A stretch of 64,000 bases of DNA, from the NCBI GenBank assembly GCA_021464245.1, contig JADCRB010000018.1:2151261-2215260 (forward strand), given 5' to 3'. A program made the translations under genes and the position numbers. The notes beneath the pieces were generated by a model, which saw nothing but the letters and a program-made list of their open reading frames with translations, had not been told where the DNA came from and did not search any database. Each line of letters opens with the position of its first letter. The stretch's first letter is position 1. The stretch is from Carallia brachiata. Lineage: Eukaryota; Streptophyta; Magnoliopsida; Malpighiales; Rhizophoraceae. This document shows positions 30,060 to 64,000 of this stretch, in pieces.

Positions 30060-31690
30060 ATCCGAACCTCTTTCCTTTTTTGATTTCTGGCTAAATCTTT
30101 CCTATTAAGGGTTCTCAAGTTGGACGTATTTATGGATACGAAATCTTCGTGTATTTATTTGGATGAGTCCAATTCTAATCACTGGAAAACTGAAATCCGA
30201 ACCATGTTTTTTTTTTTTTTTTTTATAACGAGATATTGTTTTAACAAAAAAACAAGTAAAAAAAACAGAAAACAATTGTCTAATTAAATAAAAAAAAAAA
30301 AAAGGCAATTGTAACGTGGCAATACCAATATCTTACTTTTGGCTACCTATTCGTTTCCTATTTGATATAAAATTTTTTTACTATATTACCTTTTATGTCA
30401 TGAAAAAGATTTTATATTTATTTAAAAAATATGAAATCGTTAATTTATGATGTAACATGTTGATGTGATAAATTTAGCACGTTGATATGATAAATTTTGT
30501 ATAAAGTAACTGTTGATAGTCTCACACCAGTGGACTTAACGATTATGTTAGCGGATTTAACAATAAATTTAATGCTTGTGTCAATTTAATCAGACAAAAA
30601 TATTGTAGCGGATCAATTTAAAAAATTATTCTCAAAAAATTGAAAAATACAAATTTTTTTTTGAATAAAATTGATCGTTAACCCCATTATTGTTAATTGT
30701 TATTCAATGCTATCTTTAACTGTGATCATAAATCGGAAGATTGACTTAAAATATGTAACTCATAATACGTGTATTCGTGTAAATACAAAAGCATTTAAGC
30801 ATTCCGTTTGTTGACATTTTTCACGGGTTTTTCTTTCCGTTTTTTTTTTTTTTTTAGGTAGAAGCAGCGTTAGAAATTTTTTACCAAAGAAATACTAAAT
30901 AATAACATTTAAACAGTAATAAAGTAATACGAGTTATTAGATAATTAATATTTAAAAAAATAAAAATATAAATAAGTTATTAAATATTATTAGATAAATT
31001 ATATAATTTTTATTATTATTTAAAATTAATTTACATGATAAACCTCTTTCTTTTTTTTCCAACAAATAAAACGTATCCTATGAATTTCAACTGGATCACA
31101 CTCTTCATGTCTTTATTAAATCAAAAATTAACGTGGAACCAATTAGCTAGCTTTAACGATCTAAAACTTCAAGTCATTTTTTGTTAATTGACTGCAACTA
31201 AATTCCAATATGAGACGTTCAATAGCAGTAAGCTAGAGCTCATTGCTCATTGCTTATTGGTATAAAGTTTTCATTCATTACCAAATAGTGATCAGAGCAA
31301 TTGGATCCAATAGTAGTTTATCTTAATAGGGGAATTTAAGTTGTTATATGAGATAAATACACAAGGAAAAACCAACCTGACAACAAATAAAATTATCAGT
31401 TATATTAGGATAATGTCTTAATTTTTATCCAATAAAAATTAGTTCAAACGGTTATTAATTTCTAACTTATCCCTAAAAATACTCTCCACGTATTTGTGCT
31501 GGCGACAGAAAGGCCCGAAGGCTGTTCCCATCCCTGTCCGGGGAGATGCCAATCATTTCTTCTTTCTACGAACACCATGTAATAGATATGTACAAATTAA
31601 TGTTACACGATTCATAATAATCCCAACAAACGCTGACCCATCGCTATTTTTGGGATTCTCCAAAACTATAGCCTTTTTTAGCTATAATTC
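30060..31690. other. AT-rich intergenic region
   Basis: Homopolymer T and A runs (30,205-30,225, 30,290-30,303 and 30,840-30,855) and AT-rich sequence fill this stretch. I see no gene. The right end grades into the GH3 promoter. Confidence 0.6.
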
Positions 31691-31743: not shown

Positions 31744-32862
31744 CTTCATCAGAGTCATCAGTTTGATTCCAAAATTTTTTTTTTTTTTGGTCCCACTTAT
31801 CTTGACATTTTGAGTTTTGGACTTGGGAGTTGTTCTTCTTCAGGTTAGAATTTTCTCTTTTCTTTGTATATATAATCTAATAGGTTCATGAACTCATGTT
31901 CCATTGTATTTTATTGTTTACTACCTCTGCATCAATCGATGGGTTCAAGAGAAAAGCCGTAAACTGCAATGAAGAAGAATAAGCATGAGAGGTGGTAAAA
32001 AATATTAATGCACAGGATAAAAACTGAGCCTTTTCAGGAGAAAAGGTTGCAGGAGAATTTGAGGGCAAGGAATTATTGGAGCCTGAGAGCAGCAATGCCT
32101 GCCACTCCCCTTAAGTGGACGATTGTGCTGTAAAGAAAAACATAGAGCTTCCACAAGAACCAAAAAATCGCAAAAAATTATAAAAGGCAATGAAAGAAAA
32201 GTACTTTTGGTTCCTCATCTCTTATAAACTCTAAGTTCTGCTCATACCACGACCCATAGGTCAAATCCAATAAGATCGTCACCAAGCCACTCTCACCTTG
32301 TTGGTATTCATGCGATGATGGCGCAGAGGGAAAAAGAGATGGAGGAGGAGAACATATAAAGATCGAATTTTTCATTCACAAAGTGTAGTTGTTATTATTT
32401 AACACGAAATGACTTCGTTACATAGACTTGGGTGAATTTACGTCTTAGAGAGCCTCTGAATCAAATCAATGAATTTTAACTCATTTGTATTAAAGCTGTA
32501 TAAGAATTGGTGTCAAAAGATCCAATAGATGTCAGTTTGCTTCCAAGCTGAAAAAATTTCAACGTCCTCATCTATCCAAACAAGTAAATTGGAAAATTTT
32601 CATTTTGTCGTTTTTTTTTCATAAAAAGAAAAAAAATCACTATCAGAATTCTTGTATATCTTCATCAGATTTTGTTAACAATCTATTTTCATAAACTAAC
32701 TCCCTCTGTTTCCAACAATTTTTGTTTTCTTTTCTTTTTTGCATACAATTAATTGGTTCATATTTTCCATGTCCAATATTAAGTTATCACCTTGTTCTTA
32801 CTTATTTTTTCAGCAGGGCCAACTCCAAAGACTTAAGCAAGACTTTGTTCTGTGCCAACAAG

Positions 32863-35726
32863 ATGATGAGAATTTCCATCCCCCTACTGGGGTATCTGCT
32901 ATTATTTTGCTGTTTTGCTGCCATGGCATCAGCAACCAAGGCAAAAGGAGAATACATGATATACAAAGATCCAAAGCAACCTATGAAAGCTCGCATAACG
33001 GACCTCCTGAGCCGGATGACACTAGCAGAAAAGATCGCTCAAATGACACAAATAGAAAGGGCTAATGCAACTTTTGAGGTACTGAGGGACTACTCCATCG
33101 GCAGTGTGCTTAGTGGTGGAGGAAGTGAGCCAGTTCCTCAGGCCACTCCTCAGGATTGGATTGACATGTTTAATGCTTTCCAAAATGGGTCTCTCTCCAG
33201 CCGCCTTGGCATTCCTTTGATCTATGGCATTGATGCAGTTCATGGCCACAACAATGTCTATAAGGCCACCATATTTCCACATAATGTTGGTCTTGGAGCT
33301 ACAAGGTAATGCACTTTTTAAAGATATCAAAAAAGCTAGTTCTTATTTTGATCATCTTGCAATGATTCTGTAACTCTTTCGAGTAAGTTGCCAAGAAATT
33401 TTTGTTCTTCCCCCGATCCCTCGGTGCCAGGATTTGAGCCTAGTTACTGGAGAAGTAATAGTCAATTTGGTCTACCACTGCACCACATGGCTGGTGGCTG
33501 CAAAGAATATGCTTTAACTTGAATAGTAATATTGTTCAATCGCATATTGCAGGGATCCCGAGCTTGTAAAGAGGATAGGTTCTGCAACTGCTCTTGAAGT
33601 TAGAGCAACAGGCCTTAACTATGCCTTTGCTCCATGTATCGCGGTATGCACTAGTTTAGATGTAATTTTGCAAGTATGATCTTAATTTGAAATAGCACAC
33701 ACTTATTTCCTTGTTAATTGATCTCTTTTATTTCCCGACAGGTTTGCAGAGATCCCAGATGGGGTCGTTGCTACGAGAGCTACAGTGAGGACCCCAGCAT
33801 TGTTGTAAAAATGACAGAGATGGTTTCTGGATTGCAAGGTGACTTGCCTCCACATTCGCGAAAGGGTGTCCCTTACGTTGGTGGAAGGTGAGTTTCACAA
33901 GTTCAAACGCACTTTGCTTAGTTAAAAGCTTTAGTGCTTCAATAGTTTCTGCAAGGTTCTGTACTGCCCTTCGTATTAGCTGAATTCTCAACCTTAGCTC
34001 AGCTTTCTTTCACAAATTTGAACTCTAGTTTGTTGAGCCTTGTAATAGGGAAAGGTTGCTGCTTGTGCAAAGCACTATGTGGGTGATGGCGGCACTACAA
34101 AGGGCATTAACGAGAACAACACTGTCATTGATTATCGCGGACTCGCGAGCATTCACATGCCAGGTTATTTCCACTCTATTTTCAAGGGCGTTTCGACAAT
34201 CATGGTTTCCTACTCGAGCTGGAATGGACAAAAGATGCATGCTAACCATTATCTTGTCACCAAGATACTCAAGGGAACTCTTAGATTCAAGGTAATAAAT
34301 ATTTGTAAACATTACAGTGCAATGATATTCAATACTTAAAGTCACTGTATCTGGAGGCAATCATTTCTTCTGGTTGTTTGTACGAATTGCAGGGTTTCGT
34401 TATCTCGGATTGGGAGGGTATTGACAAAATTACTTCCCCGCCCTACGCAAACTATACAGAGTCAGTTCTTAAATCAATTTCAGCCGGGGTCGACATGGTT
34501 AGTGGCAAAGCGATTCCTTTCTAACTTGATCGCAGGAATTAACGAAAAGTTTTTGCTTGGAAATAAAAATGCCTTAACATGTACTGAAGCTTGTAAAATG
34601 ATTGCGTGTATTTGTGTTTCAGGTCATGGTTCCCTACAAATATCCAGAATTCATCAATACTCTGACCAACCTTGTCAACAAGAAGTTCATTCCCATGAGT
34701 CGTGTTGACGATGCTGTTAAAAGGATCTTGAGGGTGAAATTCGCTATGGGTCTTTTTGAGAGCCCCTGGGCTGACCAGACCTTTGTGGACCAGCTTGGAA
34801 GCCAGGTTCATTAACTCTTTTTACTGTCCTTTTTCCATCTGAATATCAACTTTTCCTTTTTTCCTCAGCAGATTTGTTCTGATATACATATAAAGATTCA
34901 CTGACAAATTAAAATTTGTTTCGAAATAAAAAAAAAACAGGCTCACAGGGATTTGGCAAGGGAGGCTGTAAGGAAATCCCTTGTTCTGCTGAAGAATGGT
35001 AACAATGCAGATAGTCCATTGCTACCTCTCTCCAAGAATACATCTAGGATTCTAGTGGCTGGGACCCATGCAAACAATCTGGGGTATCAATGTGGTGGTT
35101 GGACCATCGCTTGGCAAGGGCTTCGTGGCAACAACATCACTGCTGGTGTGCACTTTTCCTTATATAACCTCAATTCATGTATGCAAAAAAAAGTTAATCC
35201 TGTGGCTGAAGCTGTTTCCTTGTGATGAGCAGGAACCACTATTTTGAATGCCATCTCCACTGCGGTCGATCCTAGTACTGATGTCATCTACAGTCAGAAT
35301 CCTGATGCTAATTTTGTCAAGTCCAACAATTTCTCCTATGCTATTGTTGTTGTTGGAGAGCCACCCTACGCCGAGACGAAAGGAGATAGTTTGAACCTGA
35401 CCATTTCTGCACCAGGTCCAAGTACAATTACCAATGTTTGTGGGAGTGTCAAGTGTGTTGTTCTCGTAGTCTCTGGGCGCCCGGTTGTGATTGAGCCTTA
35501 TCTGTCACAAATAGATGCTCTTGTTGCTGCTTGGCTGCCAGGAAGTGAGGGACAAGGAGTTGCAGACGTCCTGTTTGGGGACTACGGATTTACCGGCAAG
35601 CTTCCTCGTACTTGGTTCAAGACTGTTGATCAGCTCCCCATGAATGTTGGAGATTCTCATTATGACCCACTTTTCCCATTTGGTTTTGGACTCACTACAA
35701 AGTCCGTCAAGGCAAACCAGGCATAA
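32863..35726 (+). CDS. GH3 beta-glucosidase / exo-beta-glucanase, apparent one-base frameshift
   Basis: This glycoside hydrolase family 3 enzyme probably removes glucose from the non-reducing end of cell-wall beta-glucans. Exons: 32,863-33,305, 33,553-33,643, 33,742-33,887, 34,049-34,291, 34,393-34,497, 34,623-34,805, 34,941-35,145 and 35,233-35,726. The start at 32,863 gives '[19 protein letters not shown]', a signal peptide, so secretion is likely. The N-terminal barrel domain includes '[11 protein letters not shown]', '[12 protein letters not shown]' and '[13 protein letters not shown]'. The nucleophile Asp lies in 'ISDWEG', and the acid/base Glu is expected in 'PPYAETKGD' of the C-terminal domain. 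The exons total 1,910 bp, one short of a multiple of three. The exon 3/exon 4 join reads AGG GAA AGG TTG where the family needs a Lys-Val-Ala-Ala frame, so one base is missing after 34,049. Without it translation stops soon into exon 5, before the nucleophile. No other plausible acceptor restores the frame. This is either a real null allele or a sequence error. Confidence 0.85.
33395..33510. repeat. Small repeat-like segment in GH3 intron 1
   Basis: The segment ends in 'gtctaccactgcaccac' after 'aggatttgagcctag'. Such strings recur in plant short interspersed repeats with a tRNA-like B box. Only about 115 bp are recognisable. Confidence 0.25.
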
Positions 35727-54164: not shown

Positions 54165-54898
54165 TGTAAACATGTTAAAAAAAAAAAAATCAACTTCTAG
54201 AATGGTTGGCGTTGCCGCCACCAACCATTAAATAAGCCCTCCAACCCTTAGTTCAAAATATATTCAAAAAATTTATAAATAGAAAAATAAAGAGAACTTG
54301 AAAGAAAAAAAAAATTTTGAAAATCACTTAAAAAAATTTTTCTTTTTTTTTTTACGTGTTTTTACTTTACTGTATACTCTTTTAATTTCTTTTTGAGAGA
54401 TATTTCAGATATAAACCAAAAAAAATTTTCTGTATCCATTTCTAAATTTATTTTTGGGTTTATATTCTCCGATCGCTTTAAATCTGGATTTGTGAGAATA
54501 TAGATCTAAAAATATCAAAATATTACAAATCTAATTGAGATCAAGTCTCATACGGCCCTCAGCAAAATCTAGGTAACTCATTCAAGAACATGTCCCTTCG
54601 ACCCTTGGTGAAATCAAGCAAGATCGAGTCAGATCAGGTCTCTGCAGTTCTTAACTATAGTCTAAACGTCTACATCAGATCCAGTTTCAATACTACCCAG
54701 TTCAAGATAAAGCTGTGAAATTATTTCTGTTAATACAAGCTCGTGTAGCTCTTGACAGAACCACAAAGGAACACTAATCGAAAGATTTACGAAAATCGAC
54801 CTCACGTAAATTTTCTTTTATTTTAAATTTTTATTTGCAATTTGTAATTTGTATTTTCGAGTCTAACTGTTACAGGCTCGGGATTTACGTCCGTTACA
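54165..54898 (+). repeat. 5' LTR of the Ty3/gypsy element, promoter region deleted
   Basis: It begins TGTAAACATG, matching TGTAAACGTG at 63,680, and ends ...TTACA just before a 'ttctgacacgctcggtggga' block that occupies the primer-binding position in Tat-lineage elements. Compared with the 3' LTR, about 70-75 bp are missing after 'ccaccaaccatt', including the TATA-like CTATAAATAG. Confidence 0.8.
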
Positions 54899-54944
54899 AA
54901 TTTCTGACACGCTCGGTGGGACCTCTTCACCTCTCATCTCTTGT

Positions 54945-58485: not shown

Positions 58486-59715
58486 GTGGACGTGTTCGCA
58501 TGGAGTTACAGAGAAATGTCCGGACTTGACCTGAAGATGGCGGTGCATCGTCTAGCAGTAAAGAAGGATGTTTGTTTTGTCAAGCAGTCACAACGACGGT
58601 TCCGCCCGGAACTCATTCCACAAATCGAGGAGGAGGTAAACGAGCTTATCAATGCCGCCTTCATCCTAGAGGTCATCAACCCAACGTGGATTCCCAACAT
58701 AGTCCTGGTGAGAAAGAAGAATGGATAGTTAAGGGTATGTGTTGACTTTCGAGATCTTAACAAGGCCTATCCGAAAGATGACTTTTCGTTGCCCATAATG
58801 GATATCACAGTTGATGCAACAACGGGCCACGAAGCATTGTCCTTCATGGATGGTTCTTTAGGCTATAACCAAATCAGAATGGCACCAAAGAATGATGGGT
58901 TGACGGAATTCCGTACCCCAAAAGGTATATACTGTTACAAAGTTATGCTGTTTGGATTAAAAAATGTTGGCGCCACTTATCAGCGTGCCATGCAAAAAAT
59001 TTTTGATGATATGCTGCACAAGATTATAGAATGCTATGTCGATGACTTAGTGGTAAAGACTAAGGAGCGCAAAGATCACCTCGAGGATCTCATGACAGTG
59101 TTTGAAAGATTTCGCAGGCATCAGCTCAAAATAAACCCTCTCAGGTGTGCATTCGGTGTCACCTCAAGAAAGTTTCTTGGATTCGTAGTGCGCATCGTGG
59201 AATCGAAGTTGATCAGTGAAAGGTTGAGCCAATTCAAAAGATGCCTGAACCTAAAAACCTGCACAAGCTGCGAAGTCTACAAGAAAAACTGGCCTACATT
59301 TGCCGTTTCATCTCTAACTTCGCTAGGAGGTGTCAACCTTTCCATCAGCTGATGAAGAAGGATGTTAACTTCGAGTGAGACGAAGCTTGCAGCAAAGCTT
59401 TCGAGAGCATAAAGAAGTACCTTTCCAATCCACCAGTCATGGGTGCTCCAATTCAAAAAAAGTCGTTGATTATCTATATTGCAACGTAGAAAACGTCTTT
59501 GAGAGCCTTGCTTGCATAAGAAAATGAGCAGGGAAAGGAAGTTACCTTGTATTACTTGAGTAGAACACTAAATGGTCCAGAGATGAACTACTCACCTATC
59601 GAGAAGATGTGTCTAGTGTTGTTCTTCGCTATTGATAAGATGAAACACTACATGTAGGTTCACACGGTACGTCTCATTGTTAGAATTGATCTTATCAAAT
59701 ATATCTTATCTAGAC
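58486..59715 (+). pseudogene. pol: Reverse transcriptase and RNase H, degenerate
   Basis: Polymerase motifs appear in order: 'INPTWIPNIVLVRKKNG', TAG, 'LRVCVDFRDLNKA', 'SFMDGSLGYNQIRMAPKN', 'FGLKNVGATYQRAM' and the catalytic 'YVDD' near 59,035. The TAG at 58,726 sits where the family has Gln. After about 59,230 the frame shifts. RNase H sequence follows with stops ('SLRALLA', 'YYLSRTL', 'NYSPIEKMCLVLFFAI'). The active-site residues of the polymerase core survive, but the reading frame does not. Confidence 0.88.
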
Positions 59716-59879
59716 CAGTCTTGTCTGGACGACTTGCCAAATTGACAGTAATTCTACAAAATTACGACATTGTTTACGTGCCTCAAAAAGCAGTCAAAGG
59801 ACAAGCTCTGGCGGACTTCCTTGCAGATTACCCTATCTCGTCCGATTGGAAGTTCACAGATGATCTTCCGGATGAAAAG

Positions 59880-60191
59880 GTCTTTTACACTGAGACACTG
59901 CCACCAAGGACGATATTCTTTGATGGTGTAGTAAGGCGAGATGGTGTTGGTGCTGACATAATATTTGTCACTCTTCAACGACAAATACTACTATATGCTA
60001 TCATACTTGGTGCGTTACGTCCAAATAATATTGCTGAATACCAGACTTTAATTATTGGTCTTCAAATGGTTGTCGATGTTAAGATTCTAACTATAGAAGT
60101 CCATGGAGTTTCCCAGGTCGTTATCAACCAACTTACAAGGTTGTATGATGTGAAAAAAGAGGACCTTGTGCCTTACCATCAACGTGCTTGA
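59880..60191 (+). pseudogene. Second (archaeal-type) RNase H domain
   Basis: The open frame 59,721-60,191 contains 'TIFFDGVVRRDGVGADI', 'NNIAEYQTLIIGLQMV' and 'VHGVSQVVINQL'. This second RNase H, downstream of the normal one, is characteristic of Tat-lineage plant gypsy elements. The Asp of FDG and the Glu of AEYQ are present, but the expected Asp in the G-D-S position has become Val. Confidence 0.75.
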
Positions 60192-60535
60192 CAGCTAATG
60201 GATGAATTTGAAAGTATCACCTTGGAGCATGTGCCTCAACGAGAAAATACTCAGGTAGACACTTTAACTAACCTTGCCACTTCTCTTGTAAAGTCATAAA
60301 TCTAGGATACAGTTGTTGCCGTATGCCAGAAATGGATCGTGCCACAAAAGGATGAAAAAGCTACAGCAACTAACACTGTATCGGTACGTCTCGCGAAGGA
60401 CGAGGATTGGTGTCAACCAATCATTGACTACCTACAGCACGGGAAGCTGCCCTAAGATCGTCATCATAAGACAGAAATTCAATAACGAGCTCTCTGATTC
60501 ATATATCTCAAGGATGCTCTGTATCGAAAGTCTTT

Positions 60536-61662
60536 TGATGGAGTTTTATTTCGCTGCCTAGGCGATGAAGAGGCAAAACAAGTTCTCGCTGAAGCACATT
60601 CTGGTGTTTGTGGCGGACATCAATTAGGGTCTAAGTTGCACTTTCAGCTCAAAAGGATGAGATACTATTGGCTAATCATAGTACGTGATTCCATTGAGTT
60701 TGCTAAAACTTGTCAAACTTGTCAATTTCATGCCAATTACATACATCAACCACCAGAGCCACTGCATCTAATTGTCTCATCTTGGCCCTTTGAAGCTTGG
60801 GGTCTCGACTTAGTGGAGCCTTTGCCAAAGTTGTCCCTAGGCCACCTCTACATTCTCACAGCAACAGATTATTTCTCAAAATGGGCCGAAGAGATTCCAC
60901 TAAGGGAAGTAAAGAAGGAACATGTCAACTACATCCAGACTCATCTGATATATCGCTATGAAGTTCCTCTGTTCATCATCACTGATAACAACAAGCAATT
61001 CTACAACAGCTTGATGGAACAGCTTGATGGACAAGCTTTGCGAGAAGTTCAAATTCAAGCAGTACAAATCATCCATGTACAATGCCTCGTCTAACGGTTT
61101 GGCTAAAGCATCCAGCAAGACCTTGTGTAATCTATTGCGGAAGATAGTCTCTAAATCGAAAAGAGATTGGCATGATAGAATTCCGGAGGCATTATGAGCA
61201 TATCGCACAACTTACCGGACCCCAACACAGGCGACGTCGTACTCACTTGTCTATAGTGTTGAAGCAATATTGTTGTTGGAAACACAAATTCTATCTCTGC
61301 ACATGGTTGTTCTGGAAGGACTCATATAGAAGGAGAATGCTCGCATACGTCTGGATGAGTTAGAAGCCTTTGATGAAAGGAGACTCGAAGAACAATAGCA
61401 ACTTGAGTGCTACCAAGCCCGGCTCACCAACACGTTCAACTGTAGAGTCCACTCTCGATCTTTTCAAGTCGGAAACCTTATTCTTGCAGTACGACGACCC
61501 ATCAACTTGAATCACCGGCCTGGTGACAAGCTTATTTCCAAATGGGACGAGCCATACTTAGTACATGAGGCCTATACCCATAACGCTTACATGCTGTCAG
61601 ACTAAGAAGGTGTCCGAATTGGCCTGATCAATGGTAAATTTCTGAAACAGTATTACGTGTAA
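60536..61662 (+). pseudogene. Integrase, degenerate
   Basis: The zinc-binding region ('AHSGVCGGH', 'CQTCQFH') is followed by the core with 'WGLDLVEPLP' and 'FIITDNNKQF'. The third acidic residue, expected in 'GLAEA', reads Lys (AAA at 61,105-61,107). Frameshifts occur near 61,050 and later. The C-terminal part can still be read ('VGNLILAVRRPI', 'INGKFLKQYYV') to the natural TAA at 61,660-61,662. Without the third catalytic residue it would be inactive even if translated. Confidence 0.8.
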
Positions 61663-61699
61663 ATATGTTAAAAAAAGGAAAATAAAAAAAATCAAAAAA

Positions 61700-62055
61700 T
61701 AAAAAAAAAAGTTCGAAAGTCCCGATCTGAAAGTCCAAGCGAAAGTCCAAAACACGAAAGTCCAAGCCCAAACACTTGAGCCCAAATCAGAAAACTCAAG
61801 CCCAACTCCAAAGCCTAAAAACCAAGCCCAAGTTCAAAAGCCCAAACACTTGAGCCCAAATCCAAAAGCCCAAAACCTGAAAACCAAGTCCAGGAAAACC
61901 AAACACTCAACCCCAAAACCAAAAAACCAAGTCCAATCCATAACCCAAACACTTGAGTCCAAATCTAGAAGCTCAAGCACAGATCCAAAACCTGAAAGCT
62001 TAAATCCAAATCCAAAATCCAAACACTCAACATCTAGTCCAACTTCTGGTCCGCA
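61700..62055. repeat. Tandem 'cccaaacacttgagcccaa' repeat spacer
   Basis: After integrase, variants of 'agcccaa', 'aaagtccaa' and 'cccaaacacttgagcccaa' recur (61,768, 61,839 and 61,946 among others). Tandem repeats at this position occur in other Tat-lineage elements. The sequence is open in one frame by composition only. Confidence 0.7.
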
Positions 62056-62179
62056 TGAATATAAACTGTAAACGGCCCAAAATATATAAAAGCAATCGTG
62101 AGTTTGAGTCTGAGTCTCTGCTTCAATCTCGCTTTAGTCTTCCCTACATATTAAACTTTTACTCCTCTGCAGCAGAAAA

Positions 62180-62746
62180 ATGGAGCCATCTGCAGAACAA
62201 TAGGTTAAGGAAGAAGAAAGGTCACCCCAAAAAAGATGGCACCCAACTATAGCGCAACTGCAAATTTTTGAGGAGTTTTTCTACAACAATGGAGGAATTA
62301 TCCCTAACTCATCACAAATTCTCCAACTTGTCTCACGACTACACCCGCTAGGGGTAGTCGAAGGAAAAAATGTATATTTTTGGTTCCAGAATTGGAGAAA
62401 CAGGGAGAGAGCGGCGCTGAGAGATGCTATTTCCAAAACAAAGCATGTTGTTTCTATAGTAGATCTCACCAGTACAGTTTTACCCTCAAATGAAGTAGGC
62501 CCGAGTTCTACCACTACAATGGTCTCTCCACGGTATGTTGATCAAAGTCGTAGTTTATGGGAGCATGCATACTGCTCCTAGTGGTTTTACGGAATCAGCC
62601 AAGGGTTCATCCCTCGTAGGTACTTAAGTTCAGGAGAAACTTTTCTAACAGAAAGAAGCTATTCCGGAATATTTCGGCAATATCAACCAGTCGGAAGGCT
62701 CCAGAAACGTCAACATCATCGACCCACCAGACGAGGCCAGGCTTGA
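62180..62746 (+). pseudogene. WUSCHEL-related (WOX) homeodomain frame carried by the retroelement
   Basis: A 188-codon frame runs from ATG 62,180 to TGA 62,744-62,746, with TAG at codon 8 (62,201) and codon 134 (62,579). Residues about 18-82 match a WUS-clade homeodomain: 'RWHPTIAQLQIFEEFFYNN' for helix 1, a 'P.SSQILQLVSRLHPLG' helix 2, then 'VEGKNVYFWFQNWRNRERA' for helix 3, where the family has (I/V)EGKNVFYWFQN and RER. The long loops that set WOX apart from other homeodomains are kept. The tail has no clear TL-x-LFP WUS box. It sits about 520 bp after integrase and about 930 bp before the 3' LTR, on the element's strand. A DNA-binding role is inferred. Both TAGs could be CAG with C-to-T change. 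The homeodomain itself has no stop. Confidence 0.75.
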
Positions 62747-63015
62747 CTTGGAGTTGCGCCTTGAGCCCCGCCAGGACCACTGACAAGATAAGGTGCAACA
62801 ACTTTAGCAGCACACGGTAACGACTTTTATTATGCTCGTCAGCCGCTGCCTCTCTTGTCTTTTATGCGAGAAAGGGACGTGGAGAACCCTACTAGATTCT
62901 ACGTATTTTCTTTTAGCTTTTAAAAAAAAAAACTCTCTTTGGTGTATGTATATATATCCTGCATGCCCGAATCATAACACTTACCCCCTCAGCTCTTCTT
63001 TTTCTCAGAAAGAAA

Positions 63016-63660
63016 ATGGCTAGTCTCTACACTTGTCTCAGGAAGTTCTTTGATTAAGAAGTTGGAGGCACACGAGCTAAGAAGAGAAGGAGTAGTCTTT
63101 CTCGAGGGATCCCTAAAAGCTCTTCAAACTTAATCTCCAACACCATTGGTGTCATGGAGTTCCAACCACCCTCCTTATTTCACATCTATTGCAGCGAGCC
63201 AAGAAGTTGTGATCGTTCTCCTGGATTTATAGATGCAGCAACGTATAAGGAAGTTCCAACTACTCTCTTTATGCCGAAGTAGACTCGAAGATTATCACTA
63301 TAGTCAATCTCCCTGTGGGTTTGCCTTGTTGTTCCACGGTCCTGGACCTTCTTCATTGGGAGGTTCAAGTTTTTTGTCTACCGGATCATCCTCACCGGAG
63401 CTATGGAACTTCAAGATATATAATAAATCATTTGCGAGCTATGGAAGCTCGATGTCACCTAGAGCCAAAATGTCAATTTCTATATTGGCTGGAAGGCTAA
63501 CTTCCTCAAGATCATATTAGTTTTCATTGCGATCCAACAATAGTTAGGCACAGTCAAAGTTAGAAGACTTCAACAGTCAAGGTTCATCAAAACATCTCAA
63601 GTTTTAAACTAGACTTTAAGACTCGGTTTGGATCACGTTCGCAAAGTTCCTCATTATTGA
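63016..63660 (+). pseudogene. Second decayed frame before the 3' LTR
   Basis: From ATG 63,016 one frame reads 'MASLYTCLRKFFD', TAA, then a basic stretch 'GGTRAKKRRSSLSRG' and 'GFIDAATYKEVPTTLFMPK' before TAG. From about 63,251 another frame is open for about 83 codons ('IITIVNLPVGLPCCSTVLDL', 'HLEPKCQFLYWLEG'), stops at TAA near 63,500, then continues as protein-like sequence. This looks like one gene with a frameshift near 63,250 and a few nonsense changes. I do not recognise it. It may be a second cargo or element-specific gene. Confidence 0.4.
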
Positions 63661-63663
63661 TCC

Positions 63664-63679
63664 TTGAAGTAGAGGCATT
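63664..63679 (+). promoter_or_regulatory. Polypurine tract before the 3' LTR
   Basis: The sequence 'tgaagtagaggcatt' directly precedes TGTAAAC, as in Tat-lineage elements. It would prime plus-strand DNA synthesis. Confidence 0.6.
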
Positions 63680-64000
63680 TGTAAACGTGCTAAAAAAAAG
63701 TCAACTTCTAGAATGGTCGGCGTTACCGACACGACAACGCCAACCCAAATTGGCCACCAACCATTTGGTTGGTGGCAACCATGTTAAAAGGGGGGTGGAG
63801 AGCCTATAAATAGGCCCTCCAGCCCCTAGTTCAAAATATATTCAGAAAATTTATAAACAGAAAAACAGCGAGAACTTGAGAGAAAAATTTTTTTTTGAAA
63901 ATCTCATAAGAAAATTTCTCTTTTTCTTACGTTTTTTTACTCAGTTGTATACTCACCTAACTTCTTTTTTAGAGATATTTCAGGTATAAACCCCAAAAAA
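63680..64000 (+). repeat. 3' LTR, cut by the window edge
   Basis: It matches the 5' LTR from 54,165 on but keeps the 'gagagcctataaataggccc' promoter segment that the 5' LTR lacks. About 320 bp are visible, so the outer end and target duplication cannot be examined. Confidence 0.85.

Follow-up and report, generated by a model that had tools for sequence, protein, structure and literature searches.

The DNA examined here, a stretch of 64,000 nucleotides that we call the window, contains a Ty3/gypsy LTR retrotransposon from Carallia brachiata. Between the integrase and the 3' LTR of this element, on the element's own strand, lies a gene for a WUSCHEL (WUS)-type homeodomain. We hold it to be very probable that a spliced WUS-clade message was captured once, and that a Tat-type lineage now keeps it as a resident accessory gene, whose product is probably a DNA-binding repressor. 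A preliminary description, made from the letters alone, had the place and the strand of the frame right. It offered two readings, the capture of a host developmental regulator or a homeodomain carried as a regular extra gene. The sequence evidence supports both together.

The element runs from 54165 to beyond 64000, and its 3' LTR runs out of the window. Its features are collected in Table 1. Both LTRs start with TGTAAAC, at 54165 and 63680, and their K2P distance is 0.164 over 254 aligned sites. Within the native RNase H, PF17919 matches the first open piece and PF17917 the second, at 59520-59654. An exact 13-bp tandem duplication at 61005-61031, within the integrase, is a lesion of the window copy. 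The C-terminal part of the integrase has no Pfam match in the window; its stretch 61399-61602 is matched in 18 of 20 other copies (tblastn). Ahead of the 3' LTR, other copies have a purine-rich GAAGTGGGGGCAT.

Table 1. Features of the element in the window (all on the forward strand).
Feature	Position	Strand	Basis or remark
5' LTR (TGTAAAC...TTACA)	54165..54898	+	match to 3' LTR start; end from the LTR ends of other copies
putative primer-binding region	54899..54923	+	CACGCTCGGTGGGA after the 5' LTR; nearly the same in other copies
reverse transcriptase stretch	58729..59349	+	PF00078 E 7.9e-25
native RNase H, two open pieces	59379..59654	+	PF17919 E 0.00031 (below cut-off); PF17917 E 3.2e-9
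additional RNase H (aRH)	59658..60188	+	PF13456 E 5.8e-6; between RNase H and integrase
integrase zinc-binding domain and core	60498..61091	+	PF17921 E 2.4e-8; PF00665 E 7e-4 (below cut-off)
integrase C-terminal part to presumed pol end	61399..61663	+	one stop; ends LKQYYV*
degenerate CCCAAA-rich repeats, 5' of accessory gene	61734..62042	+	
TATA box of accessory gene (putative promoter)	62083..62090	+	TATATAAA
accessory WUS-type gene, broken	62180..62783	+	stops at 62201, 62625, 62646; one frame change
homeodomain, RW..RER, 59 residues	62234..62410	+	Pfam, PDB, genome copies
WUS-box place, decayed	62646..62666	+	position only; PEYFG behind it kept
EAR-type repression motif LDLELRL	62742..62762	+	sequence; other full frames
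second small 3' frame, KKRR, one stop	63019..63281	+	tblastn in 20 of 20 loci (L009-L028)
polypurine tract region	63666..63678	+	GAAGTAGAGGCAT directly before the 3' LTR
3' LTR, cut by window end	63680..64000	+	match to 5' LTR

The domain order, next to a pair of LTRs, is reverse transcriptase, native RNase H, aRH and integrase. In the available parts of one survey, an aRH between RNase H and integrase is the arrangement of angiosperm Ogre/Retand elements of the Tat clade (PMC6317226). By domain order, the carrier would thus be a Tat-type Ty3/gypsy element. It does not look like a Retand element in other ways: none of the five antisense frames in the window has Transposase_28, and the region from pol to LTR measures about 2.0 kb, against 2.9-6.6 kb in the Retand elements surveyed (PMC11963269, PMC6317226, as far as their passages were available). 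The same passages describe extra frames in Tat-type elements, namely an antisense TRP28/Transposase_28 in Retand, for which a DNA-binding role has been suggested, and a plant mobile domain in Ogre. A long stretch downstream of pol that holds additional frames ahead of the 3' LTR is a feature shared by those elements and ours. The Retand frame is an antisense TRP28, however, whereas the present one runs in the sense direction and its product is a WUS-type homeodomain protein.

The second small 3' frame (MASLCTCLRKFFDQEVGGARAKKRR..., about 100 amino acids with a KKRR stretch) is open in several copies; besides the window, it was noted in the 3' regions of loci L016, L019, L026 and L028. It matches no Pfam family. 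The sequence TATATATA is found at 62949 of the window.

The window copy of the WUS-type gene has an open frame of 125 codons at 62204-62578, on the plus strand. The length of this frame was dropped as evidence for a gene: at least 125 open codons are reached in 64 of 500 dinucleotide shuffles of 61606-63679. It is therefore the homeodomain match that is significant. The frame matches PF00046 at E 2.5e-7, above the Pfam gathering score, and in a phmmer search of the PDB it finds WUSCHEL at E 1.9e-15 and STENOFOLIA at 1.5e-13. These scores rule out a chance match, and the homeodomain frame that the preliminary description proposed is real. An AlphaFold model of the frame (29 database relatives) predicts three helices in the homeodomain, with pLDDT of 79-93 for this block, and the top Foldseek matches of the model are the homeodomains of WUS and STENOFOLIA.

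The gene itself is longer than the frame first described. It starts at ATG 62180. Near 62580 the reading frame shifts, and the +1 frame then leads to a TGA at 62781-62783, with LDLELRLEPRQDH at the end; the frames of other copies end alike. Two nonsense codons had been noted before (62201-62203 and 62579-62581). Both do lie outside the homeodomain, but there are further stops at 62625 and 62646. This gives three or four stops and one frame change in some 200 codons, where 62579 counts as the fourth stop only if the frame change falls behind it. The pol of the window is broken into at least seven open stretches across about 3.2 kb, and the earlier contrast between a stop-free homeodomain and a broken pol does not hold as a sign of selection: the lesions of the gene are no rarer than those of pol. 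The pattern LxLxLxL arises by chance in 1.8% of base shuffles of 62390-62783, so that an EAR motif read from the window alone is only suggestive. The frames of other copies bear out this putative motif.

Searches outside the genome add little. The protein database holds no relative of the window frame at E<=0.01 (13 candidates), nor of its residues 12-90 at E<=1 (1 candidate). Since this database does contain plant WOX proteins (1,863 profile matches, with the best 120 listed), the misses may stem from divergence; they may also come from a database without the proteins of this genome. A viral contig collection has no relative for the homeodomain, reverse transcriptase or WUS-type query. Within the rest of the 64-kb window, blastn and tblastn find no further copy of the frame.

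The genome of the window itself is a different matter. It consists of 337.5 Mb in 164 contigs, with the window at C77:2151261-2215260, and a search for the homeodomain yields 1,890 first-look candidates. The best 150 of these, window included, were scored, and all 150 match at E<=4.2e-50. The 149 others are 67-82% identical to the window. Inside the match, no stops are present in 124 of the 150 and 26 have them, in a list biased towards the best-scoring copies.

Co-occurrence was looked at from both sides. From the 150 scored matches, 20 copies (L009-L028) were picked for diversity. An integrase lies upstream in 19 of these, and a clear match to the window LTR lies downstream in 18. Locus L009 shows no integrase in the 2.6 kb upstream and only weak LTR matches; L022 has no match to the window LTR downstream. 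The second sample ignores the homeodomain altogether and takes roughly every seventh row, 20 in total, from the best 150 of 2,664 integrase candidates; distant relatives fall outside it. A homeodomain is found downstream of 19 of these 20 integrases, and in 11 cases it matches over 121-124 residues, stop-free. The exception is L070, with no homeodomain in the 1.4 kb taken downstream. Almost every close copy examined therefore has the accessory gene in the same position. Locus L009 (C141:455658-462558) has two WUS-type frames in tandem, the second of which is 51-52% identical to the window frame in the match.

The surroundings are shared as well. All 20 loci L009-L028 share with the window, at 75-84%, the spacer that separates the frame from the 3' LTR (partially in L022 and L025), which excludes an insertion private to the window copy. 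A TATAAA motif is present about 95 nt before the start position in all 20 other copies, and the ATG itself is found in 18. The preliminary description had named copies without the frame, a similarity that vanishes in a profile search and separate borders of the homeodomain as observations that would speak against it. None of the three holds: nearly all integrase-sampled copies carry the frame, the profile match holds, and no borders are seen.

What the intact protein looks like can be learned from 13 distinct full frames, defined as 190-215 amino acids with a start near the homeodomain and [LM]x[LM]x[LM] after residue 150. All are intronless, measure 203-208 amino acids and start with MEP, or in one case MKP. 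The WUS-box E[IT]LPLFP, as GETLPLFP or GEILPLFP, is present in 10 of the 13 and changed in L004, L006 and L008. A C-terminal LxLxL, typically PPDEVELDLELHLGPR, is present in 12 of the 13, a set partly chosen for it; L006 is without the EAR-type motif, and L026 is cut behind LDLEL. The same C-terminal end also occurs in frames that were not selected by motif (for example L016, L017, L018, L024, L027 and L057). Pfam gives its EAR family PF07897 an E of 0.014 on one of two proteins, below the cut-off. For PF00046, two full frames score 2.5e-9 and 1.5e-12, above the gathering score, and the L026 protein finds WUSCHEL in the PDB at E 5.5e-18.

The core tryptophan of helix 3 is kept in 27 of the 31 distinct element homeodomains extracted. 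Among the full frames it is lost in L004 of subfamily A, which is that of the window, and in L006 and L008 of subfamily B. L004 is the only full frame found in A, and L006 and L008, which are one duplicated insertion, are the only ones in B. Given that these frames are altered, the clean motif set rests on subfamilies C and D. In the third helix, the W-F-Q-N core is kept in most element proteins and its neighbours are changed, from NHKARER to NRRHRET or NRRSRKK. Because of these changed residues beside the core, the targets of the element protein may differ from those of WUS; the changes in the recognition helix may have altered binding specificity.

Some carriers have moved recently. For 10 of the 20 homeodomain-sampled copies the 5' part was also retrieved, and 9 of these show an LTR pair; L028 has none in the stretch taken. 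The K2P distance within pairs is 0.014 for L016, 0.016 for L017, 0.018 for L014 and 0.028 for L019. L011 and L012 follow with 0.050 and 0.056, but with flanks in common they look like one duplicated insertion. L010 is at 0.14 (partial). For L026 and L024 the distances are 0.098 and 0.106, and these pairs are less sure since both adjoin the 3' part of another copy. Those parts, L076 and L082, directly precede the 5' LTRs of L026 and L024, which means that some copies stand in tandem or nested.

Exact 5-bp target-site duplications flank L016 (TACTT), L017 (CTAAC) and L019 (GAGAC), all three with full frames. Carriers with full frames thus transposed recently. A commonly used substitution rate is 1.3e-8 per site and year; at this rate, the youngest copy is about 0.5 million years old and the window copy about 6 million.

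Copies L014, L016 and L019 of subfamily C, compared with L026 of subfamily D, are 98-99% alike in the integrase, 90-91% in the WUS-type gene and 86-88% in the LTR (~340 bp). An integrase so alike, with a gene, LTR and silent divergence that differ, suggests that pol and 3' modules may have been exchanged between element lineages.

How would such a gene work? WUS binds DNA with its homeodomain, and recruits TOPLESS corepressors with its WUS-box and EAR motif. In the mechanism that we propose, a Tat-type lineage would have taken up a spliced WUS-clade WOX message once, long ago. The gene is now found 3' of pol and ahead of the second LTR, reads in the direction of the element and would have a TATA box of its own as promoter. 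Its product would be a nuclear protein of about 205 amino acids that binds DNA by the WUS-type homeodomain and, by analogy with WUS, represses through TOPLESS-type corepressors recruited by the WUS-box and EAR motif. The benefit to the element most likely would be transcriptional action in meristem stem cells, on host genes or on LTRs. The descendants of these cells form the germ line, so expression there would serve the element.

A tentative extension, which we regard as rather doubtful, is that the element imposes or prolongs a WUSCHEL-like state, or represses meristem genes, and so makes cells bound for the germ line permissive for its expression and inheritance. Acute retroviruses, which carry host growth regulators, offer an analogy for an element that keeps a stem-cell regulator as a working gene.

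It is conceivable, if on the whole unlikely, that the protein targets the element's own LTR promoters instead of host genes. The LTR of L016 holds 12 TAAT against a shuffle mean of 5.4, a count that 0 of 200 shuffles reach. In the young LTRs of subfamily C, TAAT is at about twice the shuffle mean, reached in 3 of 200 shuffles for L014, 2 of 200 for L017 and 27 of 200 for L019, and TTAATSS occurs 2 times where shuffles give 0.4-0.6 (15-22 of 200 get there). These four TAAT-rich LTRs are close relatives and hence roughly one observation. Against this, the LTR of L012 has no TAAT excess (198 of 200 shuffles are at least as high), and the TAAT test was done only after a negative result had been seen for the window LTRs, where canonical WUS sites are not enriched. 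TGAA and CACGTG likewise show no enrichment in the five LTRs of L012, L014, L016, L017 and L019.

Whether the gene is of any use to its carrier can be judged from substitution patterns. As had been proposed in the preliminary description, dN/dS was computed between copies, by the Nei-Gojobori method, on frames of subfamilies A, B, C and D; open frames were chosen, and the pairs are not independent. Over the whole frame, dN/dS is 0.30-0.59 in 8 of 8 pairs, with a bootstrap share at or above 1 of at most 0.030. In the homeodomain it is 0.22-0.40 for the 7 pairs with silent changes (bootstrap share at most 0.044), and outside the homeodomain 0.31-0.73, where one pair in 8 is not below 1 at 5%. 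The integrase, in 7 pairs of the same loci, is at 0.03-0.41, lower than the accessory gene.

Between subfamilies C and D, the spacer diverges by 8-12% and the integrase by 1-5%, and the gene shows a dN of 0.09-0.11 and a dS of about 0.22. With dN near the divergence of the spacer and dS above it, part of the low dN/dS comes from a high dS on few sites. Uneven mutation, or exchange between element lineages, may be behind this excess of dS. We have moderate confidence that the accessory gene is under purifying selection, judging from dN/dS and from C and D both keeping the three motifs.

The competing view is that the gene is a passenger, a WUS-type transcript captured once by chance, spread by hitch-hiking and not used. 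Captured genes are frequent in plant LTR elements, to go by the available parts of one study (PMC3726574). Many copies are broken, as the stops among the scored matches show, and 11 of the 20 integrase-sampled copies keep the long stop-free match. The upper dN/dS values outside the homeodomain and the full frames of subfamilies A and B, with their changed WUS-boxes and lost core residue, fit a passenger too. We nevertheless think it improbable. Subfamilies C and D, at a silent divergence of about 0.22, both retain the homeodomain, the WUS-box and the EAR-type end, and dN/dS is below 1 in every whole-frame pair, non-independent as these are. The TATA motif in all 20 copies also argues against a passenger, with shared descent accounting for part of this. 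In a neutral simulation that began with WUS homeodomains of host type, 0.7-1.4% of runs kept as many as the 22 invariant sites, out of 34, that the window retains, a figure subject to ascertainment bias. The argument from neutral decay of the window copy alone has been superseded by the comparison of copies.

The resident gene appears to descend from a processed message of host type. The host has two WUS genes (L029 and L030), whose homeodomains share 84 and 81% identity with that of Arabidopsis WUS. The nearest named protein of L030, among the 120 matches listed, is Hevea WUS at 83% over 113 residues; for L029 this is less clear. This kinship points to Malpighiales, and probably away from the legumes to which Vigna belongs. 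A look at host introns, suggested at the outset, is informative here: in both genes, the homeodomain and ETLPLFP are 1.2-1.3 kb apart, whereas in the element they are joined in one uninterrupted frame. A spliced WUS-type message is therefore the likely source.

The WOX tree proposed in the preliminary description was built from 57 homeodomains, 30 of them from elements; its WOX9 and WOX13 rows were entered by hand. It replaces a first tree in which the homeodomain of the window was a very long lone branch. All 30 element homeodomains form a single clade (98/96), and a long branch (0.9) sets them apart from the WOX proteins of the host and the database. Relative to WOX9 and WOX13, they join the broadly drawn WUS clade at 95/88. 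Their tentative position is beside, not inside, the sampled WUS clade (80/78), and a grouping of elements with WUS has a p-AU of 0.409 and is not rejected.

The spacing from RWxP to EGKN is 38 in 62 and 37 in 58 of the best 120 database matches listed. It is 38, the spacing with the extra loop residue, in all 31 distinct element homeodomains; the pattern used to extract them demanded EGKN or ESKN and allowed a length of either 37 or 38. By this count, the loop length of the element homeodomains is that of WUS. One old capture of a WUS-clade gene would fit these data best.

The element protein has in common with WUS-clade WOX proteins the WUS loop length, the TLPLFP WUS-box, the EAR-type C-terminus and the MEP start. 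It differs from WUS in being only about 205 amino acids long, in having no intron between homeodomain and WUS-box, and in its carrier, a mobile element. Its homeodomain is about 53-57% identical to that of Arabidopsis WUS, with a changed recognition helix.

Nested insertions are common in plants, and an A-tract at 62922-62932 would fit one, but the chance insertion of a retrocopy or DNA transposon into the element independently of it is so improbable as to need little discussion, given the shared flanks, an A-tract that has no duplication to go with it and a frame around which no long inverted repeats lie. For the same reasons, a LINE-type retrocopy (the missing paired duplication) and capture by a DNA transposon (the missing inverted repeats) were rejected as routes of origin.

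WOX genes in LTR elements are not new. The preliminary description knew of no described element of this kind, but a meeting report, in an account by Naito, mentions many WOX copies in Vigna marina and V. riukiuensis; the copies, over 1000 of them in the second species, lie for the most part between identical LTRs and have target-site duplications (PMC10714607). The kind is thus already known. The likeness to our case lies in high-copy WOX-family genes between LTRs with target-site duplications; the report, in its available part, is silent on the lineage of the element, the structure and clade of the gene, and selection. In the open PMC literature it is the only account found of WOX genes inside LTR elements, as far as the accessible passages go. 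In three studies of additional frames carried by plant LTR elements (PMC11963269, PMC7264820, PMC6317226), the main-text passages available do not contain the words homeobox, homeodomain or WUSCHEL, supplements apart. The present analysis contributes the set of motifs, the assignment to a Tat-type carrier, the evidence for one origin, the TATA motif inside the element, the test of co-occurrence and the estimates of age.

Other LTR elements have captured genes, like Bs1 of maize and elements with captured genes of rice and sorghum (PMC7264820, PMC3726574, both in part). They too hold a gene of the host, most often in the orientation of the element. Transduced genes however come as one or a few copies, according to the part available of PMC7264820, whereas the present gene is a regular gene of its family.

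Extra genes in plant LTR retrotransposons have no settled role, and most of these frames have no recognisable domain; in the available part of one survey, 21.4% did (PMC6317226). The present frame can be identified as a stem-cell transcription factor whose biochemistry is known. Many of its copies are open, some of these are young, and the host has an evident counterpart. This makes its expression, its binding and the element's need for it testable. An element that carries a WUSCHEL-type regulator raises the possibility that elements manipulate the cells needed for their own inheritance. The Vigna WOX amplification may be the same phenomenon. In addition, element-borne frames would inflate WOX family counts in genome surveys.

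The window also contains features away from the element. Diverged repeats, mostly in three copies, of a stretch of several kb take up approximately 7348-29991. Within them, a minus-strand frame at 16876-17214 matches the homeobox-associated leucine zipper PF02183; a motif scan found no homeodomain exon for it. A host gene of glycosyl hydrolase family 3 (PF00933, PF01915) is present at 32695-35723, and on the minus strand at 31475-31575 there is a U6atac minor spliceosomal RNA (Rfam RF00619, 54.3 bits).
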